Assembly: GCA_903916735.1 (NCBI GenBank)
Contig: CAIWXX010000043.1
Span: 1-64,000, forward strand
Direction: 5' to 3'
From: an uncultured Acidobacteriota bacterium
GTDB lineage: Bacteria > Acidobacteriota > CAIWXX01
DNA length: 64,000 nt
Within the stretch, counting starts at the first letter, position 1. Every line of letters starts with the position of its first letter. The notes under the pieces were generated by a model. It was not told where the DNA came from, ran no database searches, and saw only the letters and a list, made by a program, of their open reading frames with translations. The translations under genes and the position numbers were made by a program. This document shows, in pieces, positions 13,707 through 61,862 of the stretch.

Positions 13707-16073
13707 CTACTGAGCCGACTTCGGAGCAAGATTCACGATGATCCTATCTCCCGAGACCACCTGCATCTCTGTCAGTTCGAATTGCTTCGTGTGATTCCCA
13801 TCGCCGGCAGTCATTGTCTGAGTCCTGACCTGGCCGTTGAGCCCCGATGCATAGGGGATACGCACGGCTACTCGGCCTGCGGCGTCGCTTTGAGCGATCG
13901 TTGTCCAGGTAAAGACTCGGCTGGTGTTTGTTCGAATGGGAATTGTGACGACCACGAGGGTTGACGGCTGGGCATTTTCAATCGAAACATCAGCCCCCGT
14001 CACGATGCCGAATAGCTTGAGCTGGTTTTCGCGGATCCTGTCCCCTGGATTCGTCGGGGGAGTTTCGAAAAGCAGCCGGTAGGCGCCGAGGGCCGGTATT
14101 TTTGCCCATTTCAATCCGATGCCGTCGAAGAAGTATAAACGAGATGCCGGCAACGGCCAGAACTCGTCATTGATCTGCATCGACCATCCCTTCCACCAGT
14201 CCCGACTGATCCGGATCGGCTTTGGAGCTGTCGACGGCGCGAAGCCCGAAAGTATGTGCGCATCTTTTGACGGATTAGAAAGCAATATGAACCCGATATG
14301 CCGCCGCGTGATCACCGCCTCGGCCGCTTCAGGATTTGATGCGAGGTAGAACGCCGCAGAATCTTCCATTGCGTTCGCTCCGCCATCGATTCCGAATGGC
14401 GATGCGATGACCGGCTTCGCTGCGAAATATTGAATCGCGTGCCCCAGGTCCCATGTTGCAAGGACAGCTTCGCGTCCGGGCATTTGCGAGGAGGGTCCGC
14501 GGAGTCGTGTTAAAAGAGGGGCGCTTTGTGCGATATGGGGTGCCTCCTGAACAGTCCCTGGTGCCAGATAGGGCAGAGCCGGAACAAGAATGATGAAGGT
14601 GCCCATGATCAGAACAAAATATGTCGGCACGGGGTGTCGAAATAGTGAGTTGCCATGCAAATATCCGTTCAGAGATTCGAGACCGAGTGCCATCCAAAGA
14701 ACTGCCGGAATGGCCAGGTACAGCGAAAACCGAGAACGCGCGATCGTGAGAAAAAAGAGTAGCCCGCCCCAGTACGCCAGGAATGCCAATTGGAAGTGCT
14801 GTCCGGAGCGAAGGCGCCATTCACTTACGAAAGCCAGGATGCACAGCGGCATGAAGAGCAGCACAAGGCCGAAATGATGCAGGATGTGCATGAATTCAGC
14901 TCGCAAAGGGATCCATCCGCTGAATAGAAGGGGTTGGAATTCCTCGATTGTGGCATACCATGTGTTGGTTGCGCCAAGAGCCCACAACCCTCGCGTTACG
15001 CTTTCGCGAAATCCCGGCACGAGAGCCAATGCCAATCCGGCTGAGGGAAACGATGCGATCAGGACTTCGATGACTCGGCGACCAGGACCTGTCCCAGCCG
15101 GCTGGAGGCGGCGCACAAGCAGGATCAGCCCGGCGAAAGCCGCTGTCAAACACACGAGAAGGAGGTGGAACGAAGTCACTCCCATGATGATCGTCTTCTT
15201 GAGCTGTTGAGGAGCGAATAGGGCCAGTGATAGGAGGAGGGTTCCGGCACCCCATAAAGTCCCCATCCAAAGGGCACGAACAGGATCAGCCGGCGCATTG
15301 TCAAGCGGCACGAAAATATGCCACATCGCCGTGAATACCCCGATCAAAAGCAGATAGAAGGCGCTCCCTTGCCAGTTCCAGAAAGCGATGGCAATCCCCA
15401 GCCCCAGCAAGATGGAAGCGCCGTTCCGGCCCCAAAACGTGGGACTCCTGCTCAGCGATGCTGAAAGGAATGCCAGGATGATCCAACAACTTGCCACAAG
15501 CTCCATCGAATGCTGGTCGGGGCGCCCCAGAATCGTGAACTCCACGTTCACGGGGAGAAGCGCGAGAAGAAAGGCGGCTATCCATCCGGCACGCCGATCA
15601 AGAATCCTGGATCCCAGCACGCCGGCCAGCGTGAGGATTATGATCCCGAGAATGACAGGAAGAACAGCGGCCACGCGTTCCACGGCAGCGGGTGTGCCAC
15701 CAAGAATTTTCGCCGGGACGGCGATCAGATAATCGAAGAGCGGCGACCAGAGAATATCAGCCCCGTAGGGATAGTTCATGGACGGATCATTCCATTGAAC
15801 TCGAGGGAAGTTCTCCACAATCCGCTGCGCGCGCAGGACATGGTAGTAAGGATCCGAGTCGACAAGGAAGTGGATCCGGTCCGGCCCGAATACTTGCTTC
15901 CATGATACAAGACGGACCGCTGTTGCGACGGTCACCAGGATGCAGAGCATGATGGCCATGCTTTTGATGCTCCGACCCCGGCCTTCGACGTGATGACGCC
16001 GTTCTCCAGCGACACTCGACCGATCAATCTGTTCCTTAGCTTGGTTCCGTTTTGAGTTCTTTTTCTTGCTCAT
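13707..16073 (-). CDS. STT3/PglB-like oligosaccharyltransferase
   Basis: This 788-residue protein has a charged cytoplasmic N-terminus, about 12-13 membrane segments and a periplasmic C-terminal domain. Family motifs are visible. DSDPYYH at 72-78 is the first-loop metal motif, and GRPDQHSME around 183-191 corresponds to the DHH-type second motif. TIEE at 375-378 matches the TIxE sequon-binding motif, and TWDLG at 540-544 stands where WWDYG is expected. It should transfer a lipid-linked oligosaccharide to Asn of exported proteins, or be a relative with another acceptor. The altered WWDYG motif weakens the N-glycosylation call. There is no pgl sugar-synthesis cluster in the window; the GT39 gene and VirJ-like hydrolase are nearby. 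Confidence 0.8.
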   Translation of the reverse strand: MSKKKNSKRNQAKEQIDRSSVAGERRHHVEGRGRSIKSMAIMLCILVTVATAVRLVSWKQVFGPDRIHFLVDSDPYYHVLRAQRIVENFPRVQWNDPSMNYPYGADILWSPLFDYLIAVPAKILGGTPAAVERVAAVLPVILGIIILTLAGVLGSRILDRRAGWIAAFLLALLPVNVEFTILGRPDQHSMELVASCWIILAFLSASLSRSPTFWGRNGASILLGLGIAIAFWNWQGSAFYLLLIGVFTAMWHIFVPLDNAPADPVRALWMGTLWGAGTLLLSLALFAPQQLKKTIIMGVTSFHLLLVCLTAAFAGLILLVRRLQPAGTGPGRRVIEVLIASFPSAGLALALVPGFRESVTRGLWALGATNTWYATIEEFQPLLFSGWIPLRAEFMHILHHFGLVLLFMPLCILAFVSEWRLRSGQHFQLAFLAYWGGLLFFLTIARSRFSLYLAIPAVLWMALGLESLNGYLHGNSLFRHPVPTYFVLIMGTFIILVPALPYLAPGTVQEAPHIAQSAPLLTRLRGPSSQMPGREAVLATWDLGHAIQYFAAKPVIASPFGIDGGANAMEDSAAFYLASNPEAAEAVITRRHIGFILLSNPSKDAHILSGFAPSTAPKPIRISRDWWKGWSMQINDEFWPLPASRLYFFDGIGLKWAKIPALGAYRLLFETPPTNPGDRIRENQLKLFGIVTGADVSIENAQPSTLVVVTIPIRTNTSRVFTWTTIAQSDAAGRVAVRIPYASGLNGQVRTQTMTAGDGNHTKQFELTEMQVVSGDRIIVNLAPKSAQ

Positions 16074-39776: not shown

Positions 39777-39785
39777 TGATATAAT
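39777..39785 (+). promoter_or_regulatory. Extended -10 promoter for the cytochrome operon
   Basis: TGA-TATAAT at 39777-39785 is a perfect extended -10 element, 109 bases before the ATG at 39894. No good -35 is found, as is usual for this promoter type. Confidence 0.5.
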
Positions 39786-39893
39786 GATAACGCTTTTTCG
39801 AAGCCGGCAATCAGTAGGGAAACCGATTTGGATTCATTGGCATTTGCCGTATCGATGTCACAAACCACCAGGCTTGCTCAAGGAGGAAAGATC

Positions 39894-41186
39894 ATGAGTA
39901 ACCGCCGGCCCCGGTTCAGTCAATCAGTGGTGTGCGCCATGGTTGTCGCATCATGGCTCATCGTTTTTAAGTCTCCTCTTTTCGCCATCCCGGCTTTCGC
40001 AAGGAAATACGATACCAAGTGCTCCAGTTGTCACACGATTTTCCCCCGGCTCAACAAAACAGGCTACCTTTCCAAACGATTAGGCTACAGCATGCCGCCA
40101 GATATGGAAGAGGATAAGCCTGTGCCGAAGATTCACTCGGCCGACAAAAACATCAGGTGGAACTTGGGTGATACATTGGCTCTCGTCTTTCAAACCAGCG
40201 CCACATACGATAAGACCGGCGCCCCAGAGGAGCCATCCACTACCAACAACAGCCTCAACCTGGACAATGCCCTGCTCTTCCTGGGAGGGACGATCCCGGA
40301 AAGCAATTTCTCTTATTTTGGCGAGTACAAACTTTACGAAGATGGGGAGACGGCCCTCGAGAAAGTCCTTGTACAGTATACCCATGGCAACGTCAGGCAA
40401 AGCTTCTTCGTCAAGGGCGGCAAGATGCAGCTCCAGGAAACATCCGGTTTCCGCGGTTCTGACCCACTCGGGCTTTTCAGGGAAGGCCCTCTCATGTTCA
40501 CCGCGGTTGATCCAAATCTCTTCACAATGGATCAAGCTCCAACAACCATCGCTGCTGGGTTTACATGGGCGTCCATGTACTACAAGCAGGTCCTCGGCCT
40601 GACAATGAAAGTCACAAACGGCCTCAACGCCGATGGAAGCGAGATTGTTCAAGATTCAGAGAAGCACTCCAAGGACGTGTGGTTGCAGGCGGACTATCTC
40701 TTCGGGCCCGATGGCGGAGTCTCATTCATGGGCTATTTTGGACGTAAGTACCAGGTTCAAAACGAAGGCCTCGAAAACGAGTTTGAGTATTATCCGAGGA
40801 TCCGGAGGTGGGGCGTTTTCGGCAACTACCTTTTCTTCGACAAGCTGGACACGATAACGGGATACATGCATGGCCGAGATGATTGGAAGTGGGAATCGAA
40901 TGATACGATTCTCAACTACAAGAACGACTCGTGGTATGGCGAGGTGGACTATTACCTTCAAACGGGATTCGCCGCCACGGCACGATACGATTGGATGCGC
41001 GAGAAATTCGATCTACAGGACGGTTTTCTGCGGACTCGTGCATGGACGCTGGGGCTGCAGAAAACACTCACCAAACAGGGCAACCTTTGTGCGCGGTTGA
41101 GCTATATGGATCAAAAGATCACCGACCCCGCCGATCAGATCCAGACCGAAAAGCATCTGGCCGCCGACATTCGGTTGGGCTGGTGA
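39894..41186 (+). CDS. Cyc2-like fused outer-membrane cytochrome c-porin
   Basis: The 430-residue protein has a signal peptide (about residues 1-32). A single haem site follows in the order PAFARKYDTKCSSCHTIFPRLN (C43, C46, H47; split after Cys46 when read), then GYLSKRLGYSMP. About 350 residues of amphipathic beta-strands ending in DIRLGW complete it. The haem region, with FAR before CxxCH and then P-LN and GY, is the signature of Cyc2, the fused cytochrome-porin of iron-oxidising bacteria. By analogy it should sit in the outer membrane with the haem in or near the barrel lumen and pass electrons across it. CAAGGAGG precedes the ATG at 39894. The following genes encode a cytochrome bc-type complex. 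Direction of electron flow and substrate are unknown. Confidence 0.75.
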   Translation: MSNRRPRFSQSVVCAMVVASWLIVFKSPLFAIPAFARKYDTKCSSCHTIFPRLNKTGYLSKRLGYSMPPDMEEDKPVPKIHSADKNIRWNLGDTLALVFQTSATYDKTGAPEEPSTTNNSLNLDNALLFLGGTIPESNFSYFGEYKLYEDGETALEKVLVQYTHGNVRQSFFVKGGKMQLQETSGFRGSDPLGLFREGPLMFTAVDPNLFTMDQAPTTIAAGFTWASMYYKQVLGLTMKVTNGLNADGSEIVQDSEKHSKDVWLQADYLFGPDGGVSFMGYFGRKYQVQNEGLENEFEYYPRIRRWGVFGNYLFFDKLDTITGYMHGRDDWKWESNDTILNYKNDSWYGEVDYYLQTGFAATARYDWMREKFDLQDGFLRTRAWTLGLQKTLTKQGNLCARLSYMDQKITDPADQIQTEKHLAADIRLGW

Positions 41187-41206
41187 ACCAGAACGGAGGA
41201 AAATAA

Positions 41207-41641
41207 ATGAAATTCAAAAACAGTACTCTCACACTCTTGATCGGCACGTGCATCGCTGTCACACTGGCATTCGTTGTTATGGCCTGGGCGCAGGAGCAGG
41301 GCAAGCTTCTTTTACCCCAGGACAAAGGCCCGGATAAGCTGGACGTTTCTTCCTATCCCAAGCCGATCCAGGATGACTATAAGGTTTTTGCCGAAAAATG
41401 CCCCAAGTGCCATACACTCGCTCGAGGGCTCAACACCATGATGACTCAGGATGAATGGAGTCGCTACGTCAAGCGAATGATGCACAAGCCCAATTCAGGG
41501 ATCAATGAATCTCAGGGGAAACAGATATTTGATTTCCTGGTCTATGACGAAACTAACCGGAAGGATAAGGATCCTAAATCCTTTAATCGATCGCTGACCG
41601 ATGAGGAGCTGGAAAAACTCAAAGCCGGCGAAGGGCATTGA
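41207..41641 (+). CDS. Periplasmic monoheme cytochrome c
   Basis: The 144-residue protein has an N-terminal signal or anchor (about 10-29, ending AWAQ), and one haem motif, EKCPKCHTLARGLN (C65, C68, H69). The following EWSRYVKRMMHKPNSGI and FDFLVYDETNRK are typical of a family of small cytochromes I have seen beside bc-type complexes. A methionine in 78-92 may be the sixth ligand. It should shuttle electrons between the outer-membrane cytochrome and the bc-type complex. It starts 20 bases after the Cyc2-like gene with GGAGG, so it is translated from the same message. Confidence 0.85.
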   Translation: MKFKNSTLTLLIGTCIAVTLAFVVMAWAQEQGKLLLPQDKGPDKLDVSSYPKPIQDDYKVFAEKCPKCHTLARGLNTMMTQDEWSRYVKRMMHKPNSGINESQGKQIFDFLVYDETNRKDKDPKSFNRSLTDEELEKLKAGEGH

Positions 41642-41761
41642 GCAGATGCTGAAGCCCAATGCGCCTGTCTTCAGCCCCTCTGAACCAAGGACGGGCGCAT
41701 ACGGCTTTTGTTTGAGCATTGATCATGCGATTTAACGGGGTTGTCACAAGAACAAATAGTG

Positions 41762-42223
41762 ATGCCTAATTCCGAGACAAACACACGGACTCGCCGCGAA
41801 TTCTTCGCCAATGTCGTCATGGGCTCCGGCCTGCTGCTTGGCCTTGGCGGCCTGGCCGCACGATTTGCCGAGTTCCTGTATCCGGTCGTGCCGCCTCAGA
41901 AGCTCATCAAAGCCCTGGCAGGCAAGCTGAGTGATATTCCCAAAGGCGGGGCGCGCATGTTCAATCCTCTGGATGCACATGTCATGATCGTCGATGATGG
42001 GACTCAATTGCTGGCCTTCTCGGCCGTCTGCACTCACCTCGGATGCCTCGTCCATTGGGACAGCCAAGCGGAGCGGTTCGTCTGCCCATGCCATCACGGC
42101 GTTTATGACACCGACGGCAATGTCGTGTCCGGCCCGCCGCCGAGGCCGCTCGAACGAATCAAGCTGGCCATCGAAGGCGACCAGATTTTTGTGTTCCTGG
42201 CAGTGCGGGAAGAACCGACATGA
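41762..42223 (+). CDS. Rieske iron-sulfur protein of a cytochrome bc-type complex
   Basis: The 153-residue protein begins with a twin-arginine-type sequence, TRTRREFFANVVMG, and a membrane anchor, as expected for Tat-exported Rieske proteins. Cluster ligands are intact: box I CTHLGC (C90, H92) and box II CPCHHG (C108, H111), with C95 and C110 to form the disulfide. The protein accepts electrons from quinol bound at cytochrome b and passes them to a cytochrome c. Starts are ambiguous: ATG 41762, with a TTG at 41741 as an alternative. Its stop overlaps the cytochrome b start by 4 bases. Confidence 0.9.
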   Translation: MPNSETNTRTRREFFANVVMGSGLLLGLGGLAARFAEFLYPVVPPQKLIKALAGKLSDIPKGGARMFNPLDAHVMIVDDGTQLLAFSAVCTHLGCLVHWDSQAERFVCPCHHGVYDTDGNVVSGPPPRPLERIKLAIEGDQIFVFLAVREEPT

Positions 42224-43257
42224 AACGATTGATCAACTGGCTTCATGAACGCGTCCCCATCAGCGCCGAATCACTGCGCGAGCCTCTTCGGGAACCATTG
42301 CCGGTGCAGCTGAAGCAGTGGGTGTTCTGCCTCGGAGGCACTCCCCTGATGCTGTTCTGCATACTGGCATGCACGGGGATTCTCATGACGTTTTATTACG
42401 TCCCCAGCCCGACGCATGCCTACGATAGTGTCCAGTCCATCACGTCCCATGTGCGACTCGGATGGTTTATCCGCGGCATCCACCGTGCGGCATCGCATCT
42501 GATGATTTTTACGGTGCTGCTGCATATGATCCGCGTGTTCAGCACGCGATCCTATCGCCGGCCGCGCGAATTGAACTGGATTTTTGGAGTCGCGTCGTTT
42601 CTGACGGTGCTCGGTTTCGGCTTCACGGGCTATTCTCTCGTCTATGATCAACGCTCCTATTGGGCTACCACCGTCGGCACGAATCTGCTCGGCGAAACGC
42701 CGATCATCGGAAAAATGTTGCTGTACCTCATCCGAGGCGGGCCGGATGTGAATCCCAATACACTGACCCGGCTCTATGATTTTCATGTCGGCGTCCTTCC
42801 CACAATCCTGGCGCTGCTGATTGTCTCGCACTTGATCCTCGTCCGGCTGCACGGTGTCGCTCGTTTGGAAAACGATCCGCGTACCGAGACATATCCGTTT
42901 TTTCCGGATCATGTTTTACGGGAATGCGTCATTGGCATGCTCCTTCTGGTCGCTCTCATCAGCTATGTGATTCTCTTTCCACCAGACATGGGGCCTCGAG
43001 CGAATCCGATTGAGACGCCATCGGAAATCCGACCGGAATGGTACTTCTTCCCATCGTATCGCTGGTTGAAATTGGTGCCTTTGCAAATCGGCCTTTTGGG
43101 CAGCATGCTGTATGTCGCCTGCATGTTTCTGTGGCCATTCATCGATGCCGCGTTCGAACGAGTGGCGCCACGCCGCCGCCTGGGGCAGATCCTGGGCATG
43201 TGCGGGTTTCTGGTGACGATCATCTTCCTTGTATGGGAAGCGGTTGCTGGGATGTGA
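42220..43257 (+). CDS. Cytochrome b, b6-type with fused subunit IV region
   Basis: The 345-residue protein has about seven or eight membrane helices. The b-haem ligands are H88/H102 and H189/H204; the 14- and 15-residue spacings are those of cytochrome b6 rather than mitochondrial-type cytochrome b. FCLGG at 36-40 places a Cys exactly where b6 binds the extra haem c(n). The C-terminal part has the quinol-site RPEWYFFPSY and then three helices, so b6 and a shortened subunit IV are fused. It catalyses quinol oxidation and reduction in the inner membrane together with the Rieske protein. It overlaps the Rieske gene; the 170-base gap to the next cytochrome holds nothing I can name. Confidence 0.92.
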   Translation: MKRLINWLHERVPISAESLREPLREPLPVQLKQWVFCLGGTPLMLFCILACTGILMTFYYVPSPTHAYDSVQSITSHVRLGWFIRGIHRAASHLMIFTVLLHMIRVFSTRSYRRPRELNWIFGVASFLTVLGFGFTGYSLVYDQRSYWATTVGTNLLGETPIIGKMLLYLIRGGPDVNPNTLTRLYDFHVGVLPTILALLIVSHLILVRLHGVARLENDPRTETYPFFPDHVLRECVIGMLLLVALISYVILFPPDMGPRANPIETPSEIRPEWYFFPSYRWLKLVPLQIGLLGSMLYVACMFLWPFIDAAFERVAPRRRLGQILGMCGFLVTIIFLVWEAVAGM

Positions 43258-43427
43258 GCAAGGTCACGTCGCAGTCGGCATTGGGGCGTTGATGTTACAA
43301 AGCAAAAATCTCTGGAAACACTATGATTGAGGTTTTAATTTTTCTTTCGCCTCTGCCGGTTCAACAATTTTCCGATTCAGCACTGGTTTAATTTGGGCGT
43401 TACTGCTGGTACGTGAGGGGGCTTGTC

Positions 43428-43895
43428 ATGAATTTGATCGTCGAGAAAGTAATGGTCGGCATTCTCGGACTGATGTTGTTCACTTCGGTGATGGTCGTCG
43501 GCATCATCGATGCCCGGCATCGAATGCAAGCGAAGGCGGAAGCGACGCCGCGCGCCGTCATGAATCCACAGCTCGATCGAGGCCGTGAAGTTTTTGAAAA
43601 ATTCAGCTGTGTCTCCTGCCATGGAATCGACGGCAAGGGTGGCATCAGCAATTACAATGCGCAAACGGCTCAGCTGGTACCTCCTCTAACGTATGTCGCG
43701 GACAGCTACTCGAAGGCGGAGTTGAGCGACAAAATTCTCCACGGTGTGAGACTGGTGGAAAAGCTGGACGCTAATGGCCCGACGCCGCCTCTCTATATGC
43801 CTGCGTTCAAGGGAATTATTTCCGACCAGGACCTCGATCTCCTCATCGGCTACCTTAACAGCCTGATGCCGAAAAAAAGCAAAGACTCTTGGTGA
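43428..43895 (+). CDS. Membrane-anchored monoheme cytochrome c
   Basis: The 155-residue protein has an N-terminal membrane helix (about 8-27, VMVGILGLMLFTSVMVVGII), then a cytochrome c domain with CVSCHG (C61, C64, H65) and PLYMPAFKGIISDQDLDLLIGYL, in which Met in YMPAF is the likely sixth ligand. This is a class I c-type domain used as a redox partner or c1 substitute for bc-type complexes. GAGGGG stands before the ATG at 43428; the frame is open to a GTG at 43413. It probably receives electrons from the Rieske protein. Terminal oxidases are not in this window. Confidence 0.85.
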   Translation: MNLIVEKVMVGILGLMLFTSVMVVGIIDARHRMQAKAEATPRAVMNPQLDRGREVFEKFSCVSCHGIDGKGGISNYNAQTAQLVPPLTYVADSYSKAELSDKILHGVRLVEKLDANGPTPPLYMPAFKGIISDQDLDLLIGYLNSLMPKKSKDSW

Positions 43896-57106: not shown

Positions 57107-59296
57107 CTAACCGCCGGAACGGCGGCCGGCCATCCGGCGACCCTCAGCTGCGATTTGATCGGCCTTTTCTTTCTCACCGATTGATCGCAGGAAATTGGAC
57201 ATGACAGCATACGCTTCCGGGTTCATTGGTTTGAGTTCATTGAAAAGCCCCACAGCATCTTTGCGCCGGCCCTCCTGCAGGAGTAGCTGAGCCAATCCGA
57301 TGCGGGCTCCGGCATTCCCCGCCATACCAGCCAGTTCATCTCGATATTCCTTCTCGGCTCCGGCAAGGTCGCCCTTCAGAGCCAATAGATAGGCGATGGA
57401 ATAATGGAGATTCGGCAGGATAAGTTGTGACTCTCTCTTCTTCAGCTCATTCTCGGCGCGCCTGAAGAGCTCCAGCGCTTCAGCCGAATGGCCGGCCTGA
57501 AATTCGATAATTCCTTTCGCATAATACGGCAAGGGAAGGGTCGGATCGAGTTGTACGGCTTGATCAAAGGCTTTAGTTGCAGCAGCCGCGGTCTTCTTGG
57601 AGAAGAGTATCTGTCCTTTCAGCTCGTATGCCTTTGCAAGAGATCCGTTCACTCCCAGAGCCTGATTGATTGAATGCAGAGCCTCATCATGCATTCCCAT
57701 CTTCCAGAAGATTCGCGCCACCAGCATCAACGACTGAGCGTTGGTTGACCTCAATTCCGCAACCCGATGCAACACAACAGTCGCCTCATCGACACGCTTC
57801 AGCCGGTAGAGGCATCGCCCGAGCATCTCCAGAACATCCCCCATGTCGGGGCTTTCATCGATGATTTTCCGGAAGACGGCAGCAGCGCCGGCATCATCGC
57901 CCGTCCGGTGCAGATGAAGACCTTTCCTGAATTCATCGATGAGATAGATCTTGTCCTTTGGATCGGGGAGCGCGGCATTTGGAGTCCCGATGGCAGTTGA
58001 CGCAACGCCGATGTAGCCGAGTGCTTGCAGCTTTTCCAGCTCCTCCTGAGTCATCTCGGCTGGAGCCTCAATCGAACTGCTAGATATGATCCTGTCGATC
58101 TGAGATCGGTACTGCCCGGCCTTCGACGAAAGGGTCGCAGCCACATTCTGATGCTCGCTTCCATCTGTCTTCAAATCATAGAGTTCTTCCTTGGGAGCCT
58201 TGATGTACTTGTAGGTGGCATCGGTCAGCGAGTACAGCTCGCTCCATCCGAAATGATATCGCGGGTAGAGGGATTCGGAATAGATCGCTCTCTTCACATC
58301 TCCACCCTGCAGGATGCCGATCAAGGATTTCCCCTGATAGGGCAGAGTGGATTTGATCCCGTAGAAGTCGAGTATCGTCGGAAGGAGATCGATATGCTGG
58401 ACGGGCGTCTGAACGCGGCGACCTGCGAATGCATTTTTCGGGAACTTGATCGCCAGAGGAACATGGATGGTATCGTTATAAATGAAGACGCCATGTTCTG
58501 ATTCACCGTGATCGCCCAGCCCCTCGCCGTGATCGCCGGTGAAGATAATGAGTGAGCGATCGTAGAGATCCTTGTCTCGCAGAGTTTGAAGAAAAGAGCC
58601 GACGAGCCCGTCGGTGTAGGCGATTTCGCCATCGTACAGCCTGCCGGCATAACGCGATGCGAAAGGCTCGGGGGGTGTATAAGGCGCGTGCGGTTCGTAG
58701 AGGTGAAGGAAGAGAAAGAAGCGGCGGGAATCATCCCGGCCATCCAGCCACGAACGGGCCGCGGCAATCGTGTCTTGGCCCTTTCGTTGGAGCTCCGCGA
58801 TCGTCACTTCCGCTTTCTCACGCTTCATGTGCCCATCATATGTATCGAAGCCCCGACTGATCCGCGTCTCTTCCCGCAGCACATAGGATGAAATGAAACC
58901 GCCGGTGTCAAATCCTTCTTTTTTCAAGATGGAAGCGGCCGTCACCTGGTCGGGCTTGACGAAGAACCCGAGATTGTCCCTTACGCCATGTTCGAAAGGA
59001 AGCAACCCGGTCAAGATCGATGTGTGCGAGGGAAGCGTTTGCGGGCAATGTGAATAGCAGTGTTCGAAGAAAACCGCATCTTTGAAAAAGCGATCAATCT
59101 CCGGCGTCTCCACATTCTGATCTCCATAGGCGGGGAGGTGATCCGCACGCAGCGTATCGATGGAGATGAGAATCACCGGAGCGGTCGTCCGCCATTGTAC
59201 CGGATCCGGTGTTCTCTTGCATGACATTGACGCCGCAAGCAAGGCTGTGACGACGCAGCAGAGGAAAAAAATCGGCGAGCTTTTTCCGGTCGACAT
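57107..59296 (-). CDS. Sulfatase-fold protein with TPR repeats, Thr nucleophile
   Basis: The 729-residue protein has an N-terminal signal or anchor, ending near ASMSC, and an alkaline-phosphatase-superfamily domain (about 38-400). VILISIDTLRADH (D47) and DHGEGLGDHGESEHG supply metal ligands. The catalytic position reads CPQTLPSHTSILTG, with Thr-87 where sulfatases have the formylglycine Cys or Ser. It is therefore unlikely to be a formylglycine sulfatase; a phosphatase or phospho(ethanolamine) transferase-like activity is possible. TPR repeats fill about 480-715. ATG 59296 is preferred over 59314. It is divergent from a paralogue at 59760. Confidence 0.85.
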   Translation of the reverse strand: MSTGKSSPIFFLCCVVTALLAASMSCKRTPDPVQWRTTAPVILISIDTLRADHLPAYGDQNVETPEIDRFFKDAVFFEHCYSHCPQTLPSHTSILTGLLPFEHGVRDNLGFFVKPDQVTAASILKKEGFDTGGFISSYVLREETRISRGFDTYDGHMKREKAEVTIAELQRKGQDTIAAARSWLDGRDDSRRFFLFLHLYEPHAPYTPPEPFASRYAGRLYDGEIAYTDGLVGSFLQTLRDKDLYDRSLIIFTGDHGEGLGDHGESEHGVFIYNDTIHVPLAIKFPKNAFAGRRVQTPVQHIDLLPTILDFYGIKSTLPYQGKSLIGILQGGDVKRAIYSESLYPRYHFGWSELYSLTDATYKYIKAPKEELYDLKTDGSEHQNVAATLSSKAGQYRSQIDRIISSSSIEAPAEMTQEELEKLQALGYIGVASTAIGTPNAALPDPKDKIYLIDEFRKGLHLHRTGDDAGAAAVFRKIIDESPDMGDVLEMLGRCLYRLKRVDEATVVLHRVAELRSTNAQSLMLVARIFWKMGMHDEALHSINQALGVNGSLAKAYELKGQILFSKKTAAAATKAFDQAVQLDPTLPLPYYAKGIIEFQAGHSAEALELFRRAENELKKRESQLILPNLHYSIAYLLALKGDLAGAEKEYRDELAGMAGNAGARIGLAQLLLQEGRRKDAVGLFNELKPMNPEAYAVMSNFLRSIGEKEKADQIAAEGRRMAGRRSGG

Positions 59297-59759
59297 CTTC
59301 AAATCACTTTCCACGATGGAATTGTTCGCATTGATCTTTTTGATCTCTCAGGTTCGGATCCGGTCATCAGGCTTCCAGCAGCGTTGCCTTTGGGCACGAT
59401 TTTTGAAAGCCGGTTCATGAGAACTGCCTCGGATACTCTTCCCAGGAAATGATGGGAAGTCTAGGCACCAAGGCTGATGATCAACGGAACCAATAATGGC
59501 CCTCGCGCCAATTTCAACAAAATCATTACCTCGCCACACTCATAAGACAACTCCCCACCTTCTTTAGAATTCATCGCTCCTTCTTCCCTTATCTTGCCCT
59601 GATCGATGACCACATGACCGACAGAGCACGCAAGGCCCTTTCGTCCTTATCTCCAGAGGCCGCGTCAATCTTCTCTCCCATGCAGTCAGATTGTAGACCG
59701 AAATCGGTAAATTGCAAACCCCCGAGTACCCGGACTATCATGAGTGAATGAGGCACGTC
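59297..59759. other. Divergent intergenic region between the two sulfatase-like genes
   Basis: This 460-base spacer must contain promoters for both genes, but I found no clear -35/-10 pair. No gene is supported inside it. Confidence 0.4.
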
Positions 59760-61862
59760 ATGAATTCCTCCAACGCGGCATGGCTTCTCATTGCCGCTTT
59801 CTTTCTTTTTTTCAACGGATGCAAACGGACAACCGGTCACTCCGGGATTTTTGCAAATTCATCAGTGCTTCTGGTGACCATCGATACCGTTCGAGCCGAT
59901 CATCTTGGGTGCTATGGTTACAAAACAGCATCAACACCCACAATCGATGGGTTGGCTGCTTCCGGCGGCCGCTTTGCCCGCGCCTACGCGCACAATGTCG
60001 TGACTCTTCCCTCGCATGCCAATATTTTATCCGGGCTTTATCCTATCCAGCACGGCATTCGTGATAACACGGGATTTCGGTTTCCGAAAAATGCGGATAC
60101 CGTCGCGACACTTCTGAAAGCCCGCGGATTCGCATGCGGGGCATTTATTGGAGCTTTCCCCGTGGATTCCCGATTCGGGCTCGATCGTGGATTCGATGTT
60201 TATGACGAATCCTATGGAGACACAACGCGCGCGCAGGATTTCCGTTTTGTGGAACGCCGGGCGGAAGAGGTCATCACGCCTTTCTTGAATTGGCTGGATC
60301 AGCAGAAGAAAGGGACTCGGTGGTTCGCGTGGGTCCATCTCTACGACGCCCATTCTCCATATGATCCCCCTGAACCTTATCGGACACAATTCGCCGGAAG
60401 GCTCTATGAGGGCGAGATCGCCTATGTCGATGCCCAGATCGGACGCGCGCTCGATCATTTGCGCGAAACGGGATGGCTTGGATCGACATATGTGATCATC
60501 ACCGCGGATCATGGTGAAGGCCTCGGTGATCACAACGAACCTACACACGGCATTTTCGCATACGAAGCGACCCTGCACATCCCGCTGGTCATCGCCGGCC
60601 CTGGGATCGCTCCCGGAGTTGTACGCTCGACGGTCCGCCACATCGATATCCTCCCGACGATCCTCGATCTCACAGGCAGCGTAATTCCAGGCATCCTCAA
60701 TGGAAAGAGCCTGCAGCCGCTTCTTTTCGGCCACAGCGACCCGGCAGGTGGTCGGGACCTCTACTTCGAAGCAATCAGTGCAAGCCTCAATCGTGACTGG
60801 GCACCTCTCACAGGAGTCATCGCCGGCGCCTACAAATACATCGATCTCCCATTGCCGGAGCTCTATAACATCGAGAAGGACCCCGCAGAAGCCGTCAATT
60901 TAATAAACCAGGATCCGGAGAATGTCGCGCAATGTCGGAAGCAGCTTTCTTCAATGCTCGCGACCGGCCGCAAAATCCAGCGCATCGCCGAAGATCCATC
61001 GACAATTGAGCGGTTGAAAAGCCTCGGATATGTAAGCGGCAAAACTCAACCCAATGGCCTCCAGAGAGTGTATTCATCAGCAGACGATCCAAAAAACCTC
61101 ATTAATTTCGATAGCCAGTTGGATGATGGTATCGCCGCCGCATCGAGTGGAGACATGGAACGCGCACGAGTGATTTTTTCAAAAATCCTCGAAAAGCGTC
61201 CCACTATGAATATCGCAAGCGGCCACCTGGCATTTGTGTACCGCCAGATGGGAAAACCGGAGAAGGGCATCGAGGCCATCGAGAGATGTATCAAAGCCGG
61301 CGGCGAATCGGCGGATCTCTTGACTCGACTCGGCCTGTGCCTCGACGACGCCGGCCAGAGCGCGCGAGCGATCGAAATTCTGCAGAAGGCCGCGAAGCAA
61401 ACAGAAGACAACGCCGACGCTCTCACATATCTCGGTATGGCTTACGATCATCTCGGTCAAGCAGATCGTGCCATCGCCACTTTCGAACAGATCCTGGCAT
61501 CTGATCCCAGAGACGCAGCGGCTTACGCGAACTTGGGAGCCGTGTACCTTGGCAGGAAAGAATACAATCGAGCCATCCAGGTCCTCGATAAGGCTCTCCA
61601 GATCGATCCCAAATTCGCTTCAGCACATAATTCGATGGGGGTGGCCATGGCGAGCACAGGTAACATGGATGCCGCCATTTCAAGCTGGCGGCTGGCCGTC
61701 CAGTACGATCCCACTCAATACGACACGATATACAACCTAGCAATTCTTTTTCTTCGTCAGGGACGGGATCAAGACGCGCGGCCTTACATGGAGCTCTTCG
61801 TTCGAACGGCCCCGCCTGCCCGCTATGGGGCAGACATAGAAGAATTCAGGCGGATGCTGTAA
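59760..61862 (+). CDS. Lipoprotein-like sulfatase-fold protein with TPR repeats
   Basis: The 700-residue protein begins with a short lipoprotein-like signal ending FFNG|CKR (C21). The sulfatase/alkaline-phosphatase fold follows (about 34-370), with LVTIDTVRADHLG (D42) and ITADHGEGLGDHNEPTHG. The nucleophile site VVTLPSHANILSG again has Thr (T82) where sulfatases use Cys or Ser. TPR repeats cover about 440-690 (YEDN-type: LTYLGMAYDHLGQADRAIATF). A GAGG sits 6 bases before ATG 59760; ATG 59748 has none. It is a paralogue of the divergent gene. Probably an envelope hydrolase or transferase; substrate unknown. Confidence 0.85.
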   Translation: MNSSNAAWLLIAAFFLFFNGCKRTTGHSGIFANSSVLLVTIDTVRADHLGCYGYKTASTPTIDGLAASGGRFARAYAHNVVTLPSHANILSGLYPIQHGIRDNTGFRFPKNADTVATLLKARGFACGAFIGAFPVDSRFGLDRGFDVYDESYGDTTRAQDFRFVERRAEEVITPFLNWLDQQKKGTRWFAWVHLYDAHSPYDPPEPYRTQFAGRLYEGEIAYVDAQIGRALDHLRETGWLGSTYVIITADHGEGLGDHNEPTHGIFAYEATLHIPLVIAGPGIAPGVVRSTVRHIDILPTILDLTGSVIPGILNGKSLQPLLFGHSDPAGGRDLYFEAISASLNRDWAPLTGVIAGAYKYIDLPLPELYNIEKDPAEAVNLINQDPENVAQCRKQLSSMLATGRKIQRIAEDPSTIERLKSLGYVSGKTQPNGLQRVYSSADDPKNLINFDSQLDDGIAAASSGDMERARVIFSKILEKRPTMNIASGHLAFVYRQMGKPEKGIEAIERCIKAGGESADLLTRLGLCLDDAGQSARAIEILQKAAKQTEDNADALTYLGMAYDHLGQADRAIATFEQILASDPRDAAAYANLGAVYLGRKEYNRAIQVLDKALQIDPKFASAHNSMGVAMASTGNMDAAISSWRLAVQYDPTQYDTIYNLAILFLRQGRDQDARPYMELFVRTAPPARYGADIEEFRRML

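Follow-up and report, generated by a model that had tools for sequence, protein, structure and literature searches.

Gene content of the locus

The DNA analysed here is a stretch of 64,000 nucleotides from an uncultured Acidobacteriota bacterium (the window; positions 1 to 64,000 of contig CAIWXX010000043.1, GenBank assembly GCA_903916735.1), part of an 86.8-kb contig (C43) in a 5.37-Mb draft genome (G000; 183 contigs, 98.7% complete). At 39894-43895, five open reading frames (ORFs) lie in a row on the plus strand and form a candidate operon for extracellular electron transfer, their order being as given in an initial annotation made from the sequence alone. The first gene (P0001; 39894-41186) encodes a 430-aa porin-cytochrome, termed PCY, with one CXXCH, which is predicted to combine a Cyc2-like monohaem cytochrome with a barrel of outer-membrane type on the evidence of its motif, AlphaFold model, porin fold matches and a 46-member alignment. 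It is followed by MonoC (P0002; 41207-41641), a putative small monohaem periplasmic cytochrome c of 144 aa with an N-terminal signal or anchor, a CPKCH motif at residue 65 and a place beside PCY in homologous loci as well. The next two genes encode a 153-aa Rieske 2Fe-2S protein (P0003; 41762-42223, with an alternative TTG start at 41741) and a 345-aa b6-type cytochrome b with a fused subunit IV-like part (P0004; 42220-43257), and the last encodes a membrane-anchored monohaem cytochrome c of 155 aa (P0005; 43428-43895), with CVSCH at residue 61 and an N-terminal hydrophobic stretch.

The genes for the Rieske protein and cytochrome b overlap by 4 bp (42220-42223), the only overlap among the five, and the widest gap, of 170 bp, precedes the last gene. 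The block is flanked by a 419-aa ORF of unknown function beside rpoC and by a short ORF for a secreted protein. That this gene set goes beyond chance is shown by the same gene order being kept in other genomes, as described below. Ribosome-binding-like sequences (AGGAGG/GGAGG) precede genes 1 and 2. The extended -10 element that the initial annotation had noticed, TGATATAAT (39777-39785, plus strand; 109 nt before the first ATG), is indeed present and holds the one exact occurrence of TGNTATAAT in the window. As a promoter it is weak evidence, because at least one TGNTATAAT was found in 37 of 100 shuffles and a two-hexamer scan called neither a promoter nor a -35 at 39777-39785; on account of the shuffles, it was dropped as proof of a promoter.

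PCY resembles the Cyc2 family

Published criteria for Cyc2 proteins ask for a fused porin and no fewer than 365 aa, with AXPXFAR[Q/K][T/Y] ahead of CXXCH and PXL behind it, and for the Cyc2 of Mariprofundus the porins OprP and OprO were reported as structural neighbours (Keffer et al. 2021, PMC8406198). The haem domain motif of PCY, AIPAFARKYDTKCSSCHTIFPRL (residues 31-53; 39984-40052, plus strand), reads AIPAFARKY-DTK-CSSCH-TIF-PRL and matches the published AXPXFAR[Q/K][T/Y]-CXXCH-PXL exactly (PMC8406198), bearing out the Cyc2 signature proposed initially, and the length of 430 aa lies above the published minimum. Across the 46 aligned homologues, residues A31, P33, R37, C43, C46, H47, P51 and L53 are invariant. 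An AlphaFold2 model built from the same 46-member alignment (predicted local distance difference test (pLDDT) score 79.7, predicted template modelling score (pTM) 0.80) displays about 16 strands and an N-terminal helical haem region, and Foldseek matched it to 16-strand porins including OprP (2o4v, E 2.8e-10) and OprO (4rjw, E 1.6e-9). The barrel suggested in the initial annotation, against which a structure prediction lacking a beta-barrel would have spoken, is therefore found in the model, with the OprP/OprO-like form expected of the fused porin in Cyc2.

Sequence searches with PCY gave no significant match in Pfam, NCBIfam or the PDB, so the family question is carried by the fold together with the published motif. 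A search of a plasmid collection returned three weak matches, all restricted to the haem domain. When PCY was compared with two proteobacterial plasmid Cyc2-like proteins, which are not validated references, the likeness did not extend beyond the haem domain and the initial strands of the barrel: hhalign gave 97.7% (E 1.6e-12) over residues 18-136, and BLASTP gave 40% over 45 aa. The plasmid-borne Cyc2-motif proteins of Methylocystis MJC1 (L140) and Caballeronia SBC1 (L141) have c-type cytochromes directly downstream, with a gene for a high-potential iron-sulphur protein upstream in Caballeronia.

PCY thus shares with the Cyc2/Cyt572 family (PMC8406198) a signal peptide, a single CXXCH, the motif with PXL, a length above 365 aa, a 16-strand-type barrel and OprP/OprO as neighbours. 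It differs from that family in falling into an Acidobacteriota-only clade in our genome scan and in being encoded together with MonoC and a Rieske/cytochrome b complex in a single operon; the likeness is drawn from sequence. By published motif, length and fused barrel we regard PCY as a putative Cyc2-like protein, the family assignment being one of motif and model.

The predicted electron partners of PCY

MonoC gave only sub-threshold matches to c-type families in Pfam and NCBIfam. The Rieske protein was assigned by PF00355 (E=1.2e-12) and contains CTHLGC at residue 90 and CPCH at residue 108, a twin-arginine-type start (TRREFF) and closest similarity to b6f-type Rieske proteins. Cytochrome b matched Cytochrome_B (PF00033, E=1.2e-46) and, in a C-terminal part resembling Cytochrom_B_C/petD, Cytochrom_B_C (PF00032, E=1.4e-11), and aligned to cytochrome b6 with an E value of 4e-48. 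The haem-ligating His pairs H88/H102 and H189/H204 and a PEWY quinol site at residue 272 were located, and the b6 alignment placed a cysteine at residue 37 within a CLGG segment, which we take to correspond to the cysteine carrying haem cn in b6f. The catalytic residues of the Rieske/cytochrome b complex are intact. The anchored cytochrome c matched Cytochrom_C (PF00034, E=1.3e-11) and generic class I c models, not those of c1 or f; a cytochrome of this type is kept in the divergent genome G166 described below, and P0005 is likely to be the c-type subunit of the complex.

Among NCBIfam models, cytochrome b came nearest to ExtP of the ExtP/ExtQ selenite/tellurite operon (NF040969/NF040970), with 217.3 bits against a cut-off of 290 bits for NF040969, and membership in the Geobacter ext system was rejected on this ground. 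A relative of the canonical type described below reached 278 bits and had an ExtQ-like part, likewise below the curated cut-offs. We know of no Cyc2-like protein in ext operons.

The PCY-MonoC pair is conserved in Acidobacteriota

Scanning the PCY alignment against 84,980 species genomes revealed 57 named loci, Acidobacteriota throughout, whose record titles include metagenome-assembled genomes (MAGs) of Terriglobia, Bryobacterales, Acidobacteriaceae and Solibacteraceae. Some isolate names contain bog, palsa or fen and so indicate peat, and other bins may, to judge by their names, come from mine drainage. Counts of loci come from related MAGs and are not independent events. The gene immediately behind PCY is MonoC in 48 of the 49 loci with sufficient flank. 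Of 46 loci, 34 have a Rieske/cytochrome b complex behind the pair, usually together with a GltD-like NAD(P) oxidoreductase and a hexahaem cytochrome, and two have Qrc-like genes there, and an NtrC-type regulator stands ahead of PCY in 40 of 51. The canonical cluster is composed of genes for a histidine kinase, an NtrC-type regulator, PCY, MonoC, a GltD-like FAD/NAD(P) and 4Fe-4S protein (~612 aa), a Rieske protein, cytochrome b (~430 aa) and a hexahaem cytochrome c. In total, the PCY-MonoC pair is joined to three kinds of complex, namely GltD-Rieske-cytochrome b-hexahaem, Rieske-cytochrome b-monohaem and Qrc-like. The last kind is represented by two loci of one lineage (L073 and L075, the same as L031 and L033), in which the genes behind PCY-MonoC encode, in place of a Rieske/cytochrome b complex, a cytochrome c, a Band-7/SPFH protein, a QrcA-like pentahaem cytochrome and a QrcB-like molybdopterin-type subunit, where the contigs end; these resemble subunits of the Qrc menaquinone reductase (QrcA/QrcB) at scores below the cut-offs and are absent from the window operon. 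Instead of the non-redox neighbourhoods that the initial annotation had named as a ground for doubt, the homologues adjoin MonoC and, in most cases, genes for a Rieske/cytochrome b complex.

The divergent genome G166 shows the same five-gene order as the window, with identities of 26% for PCY, 42% for MonoC, 47% for the Rieske protein, 58% for cytochrome b and 44% for cytochrome c. PCY is absent from G005, which belongs to the same family as G000 and is the sole other member of its class in the collection. Two further groups of loci were observed in the survey. A big second group of Cyc2-motif proteins (FARKYxxxCxxCHxxxPxLNxFG; L009-L030) occurs in about a quarter of the sampled acidobacterial genomes, mostly not beside MonoC, and in many acidobacterial genomes (L102-L129) there are clusters of Rieske protein, cytochrome b and octahaem cytochrome c that have no porin-cytochrome, several of them placed under NtrC regulators.

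The window operon as a rewired variant

A second Rieske/cytochrome b cluster is located in G000 about 35 kb downstream, outside the window (C43:79002-83947, minus strand; L138/L139). It encodes a GltD-like FAD/NAD(P)-4Fe-4S protein, a Rieske protein, a cytochrome b and a hexahaem cytochrome c, which is the canonical cluster without histidine kinase, NtrC, PCY and MonoC. In trees made by a quick method, with Shimodaira-Hasegawa-like approximate likelihood ratio test (SH-aLRT) support only, the window PCY and this second cytochrome b share the same sister, the WY3.bin21 locus L041 (SH-aLRT 96 and 99, respectively), in which PCY and a canonical-type cytochrome b sit in one operon. The cytochrome b of the window operon is of the other type: its sister is the G166 protein (58% identity; SH-aLRT 95), and its wider relatives are found in Rieske-cytochrome b-octahaem clusters without PCY. 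The G166 PCY was placed outside the clade of the window PCY, on a long branch of unsure position.

The window operon appears as a compact, rewired variant of the canonical PCY cluster, the original NAD(P)/hexahaem complex being the one that lies about 35 kb downstream. On the simplest reading, PCY-MonoC pairs have been joined to this type of Rieske/cytochrome b complex more than once, or one has been displaced by another, as modular parts that work together. The canonical cluster and the second cluster of G000 have the same parts list, of a b6-like cytochrome b, a multihaem cytochrome c and an NAD(P) oxidoreductase, as anammox Rieske/cytochrome b complexes (Kuenenia; PMC12954380), for which NAD(P)H formation through bifurcation has been proposed (PMC12954380). 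The anammox complexes are described with no Cyc2-like conduit (PMC12954380), and the window operon, which lacks an NAD(P) subunit and whose cytochromes c are monohaem, falls outside their group.

Comparison with the Acidithiobacillus path and direction of electron flow

The rus/pet path of Acidithiobacillus ferrooxidans (Cyc2-rusticyanin-CycA1-bc1) follows the same logic as the window operon, with an outer-membrane Cyc2, a periplasmic carrier, a bc-type complex and quinone, and it has been proposed to work in either direction, oxidising Fe(II) or reducing Fe(III) (PMC8790237). The cyc2 gene of Acidithiobacillus (rus operon) lies apart from the bc1 complex (pet operon), whereas in the window all parts share one operon, which lacks rusticyanin and cox genes, as G000 lacks COX1/COX2, and has a different small monohaem cytochrome as carrier.

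Searches of the 98.7% complete draft G000 gave no match for COX1, COX2, CCP/MauG or NosZ, NirS and NirK not having been searched for. Cytochrome bd is present, together with two cytochrome b genes and several molybdopterin enzymes. Given the absence of COX1/COX2 and the presence of cytochrome bd instead, the bc-type complex of G000 appears to be left with no usual oxidase partner; a quinol-cytochrome c branch without a cytochrome c oxidase therefore needs another outlet, and the operon may offer one across the outer membrane. We thus lean towards electron export in G000. The outer-membrane-to-quinone path of the initial annotation, left there as either uptake or export, is in this way supported by the PCY motif, the barrel and the redox neighbourhoods, with a lean to export added from the missing haem-copper oxidase.

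The reading that we prefer, and to which we give about an even chance of being right, is a five-gene extracellular electron transfer operon running from quinol through the bc-type complex and small cytochrome to PCY and an extracellular acceptor. The b6-type Rieske/cytochrome b complex would oxidise membrane quinol in a proton-pumping Q-cycle and pass the high-potential electron through the anchored cytochrome c (43428-43895) to MonoC (41207-41641), which would in turn reduce the one haem of PCY (39894-41186), set where the barrel opens to the periplasm. From PCY, the electron would leave the cell for a dissolved acceptor of fairly high potential at its surface, with an electron shuttle or Fe(III), soluble or chelated, as the most likely candidates; an inward flow through these components, from Fe(II) to quinone, could also occur. 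Since the potentials of the Rieske protein and cytochrome c would be high, the acceptor should be of high potential too, known potentials pointing to dissolved or chelated Fe(III), Mn(IV) or shuttles, and iron as the substrate is a prediction from the sequence.

Several points weigh against this reading. The haem loop of the PCY model is of low confidence (pLDDT < 50 for residues 41-51) and the model was built without haem, and the outer-membrane location of PCY is suggested by the fold alone. A haem-copper oxidase could sit in the missing ~1.3% of the draft. The nearest PCY relatives keep COX1, which was found in seven PCY-bearing genomes and in G005 as well, so the export argument is limited to G000. 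Finally, the characterised Cyc2 proteins are Fe(II) oxidases, in which electrons flow inward (PMC8406198).

Evaluation of alternative explanations

This last point bears directly on electron uptake, in which PCY would oxidise dissolved Fe(II), or take electrons from a cathode or shuttle, and MonoC would feed a bc-type complex running in reverse to quinone, at a cost in proton-motive force, to supply NAD(P)H or cytochrome bd. Precedent is provided by the validated Cyc2 proteins (PMC8406198) and by Acidithiobacillus, which runs its bc1 complex uphill (PMC8790237, PMC10654088), and the canonical relatives carry an NAD(P) oxidoreductase and have COX1. In G000, however, the lack of COX1/COX2 leaves no downhill branch from cytochrome c to O2 to pay for the uphill flow, and the bd oxidase is fed by quinol only, and we hold uptake in this organism to be rather unlikely. 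We consider it less likely still that PCY-MonoC exchanges electrons with humics, phenazine-like shuttles, partner cells or oxyanions (selenite, as in Geobacter ext), or serves redox balancing and not respiration. What distant Cyc2 homologues do is expressly described as uncertain (PMC8406198), and ExtP is the NCBIfam model nearest to the window cytochrome b, though below its cut-off; against such a partner stand the exact Cyc2 haem motif and a cluster in which Pfam and NCBIfam revealed neither an ext-type multihaem conduit nor a rhodanese.

The absence of PCY from the same-family genome G005 and the differing nearest relatives of the window PCY and cytochrome b might be taken to mean that the PCY pair and the Rieske/cytochrome b genes are merely adjacent. 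Such a chance neighbourhood, made unlikely already by the five-gene order repeated in G166, is very improbable in view of the tight spacing with its 4-bp overlap and the linkage of PCY to MonoC in nearly all loci. An assembly artefact fusing unrelated contigs, conceivable in a draft of 183 contigs, is scarcely credible when G166 repeats the gene order and the arrangement of PCY, MonoC and a bc-type complex recurs in many independent assemblies.

Other genes in the window

Elsewhere in the window, the gene at 13707-16073 (minus strand) encodes an oligosaccharyl transferase of the STT3 type that carries an AglB_L1 domain and is uncommon in bacteria, and two divergently oriented sulfatase-TPR fusion proteins (57107-59314, minus strand; 59748-61862, plus strand) adjoin a GWxTD-TPR protein.

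Discussion

Cyc2 homologues have been reported from many phyla, and in a network study the neighbours of Leptospirillum Cyt572 included Acidobacteria (PMC10654088). No description of an acidobacterial PCY-MonoC-Rieske/cytochrome b cluster was found in the open-access literature, subscription papers being outside the scope of our search. We very tentatively propose that a respiratory module not described before is conserved in Acidobacteriota and ties a Cyc2-like outer-membrane conduit firmly to Rieske/cytochrome b complexes. These would mostly be anammox-like, with a cytoplasmic NAD(P) oxidoreductase, so that some quinol electrons could go to NAD(P)H and others to an acceptor outside the cell (or a donor there could take part). 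In the window lineage, the conduit would have been re-plugged into a second, simpler Rieske/cytochrome b complex and, because cytochrome c oxidases are missing, electrons of the cytochrome c branch would have no other way out.

Acidobacteria are among the commonest bacteria of soil, peat and mine drainage, and little is known of the genes by which they exchange electrons with iron at low pH. Physical linkage of a Cyc2-like protein to its quinone enzyme provides a testable full path across both membranes, and the fact that this enzyme has been exchanged while the PCY-MonoC pair stayed as it was is natural evidence for which parts interact. In the window lineage, the missing cytochrome c oxidase makes the question of direction experimentally clear. 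The recurrence of PCY-MonoC across acidobacteria of soil, peat and mine drainage suggests that this common phylum has an undescribed way to trade electrons with iron or other compounds outside the cell.

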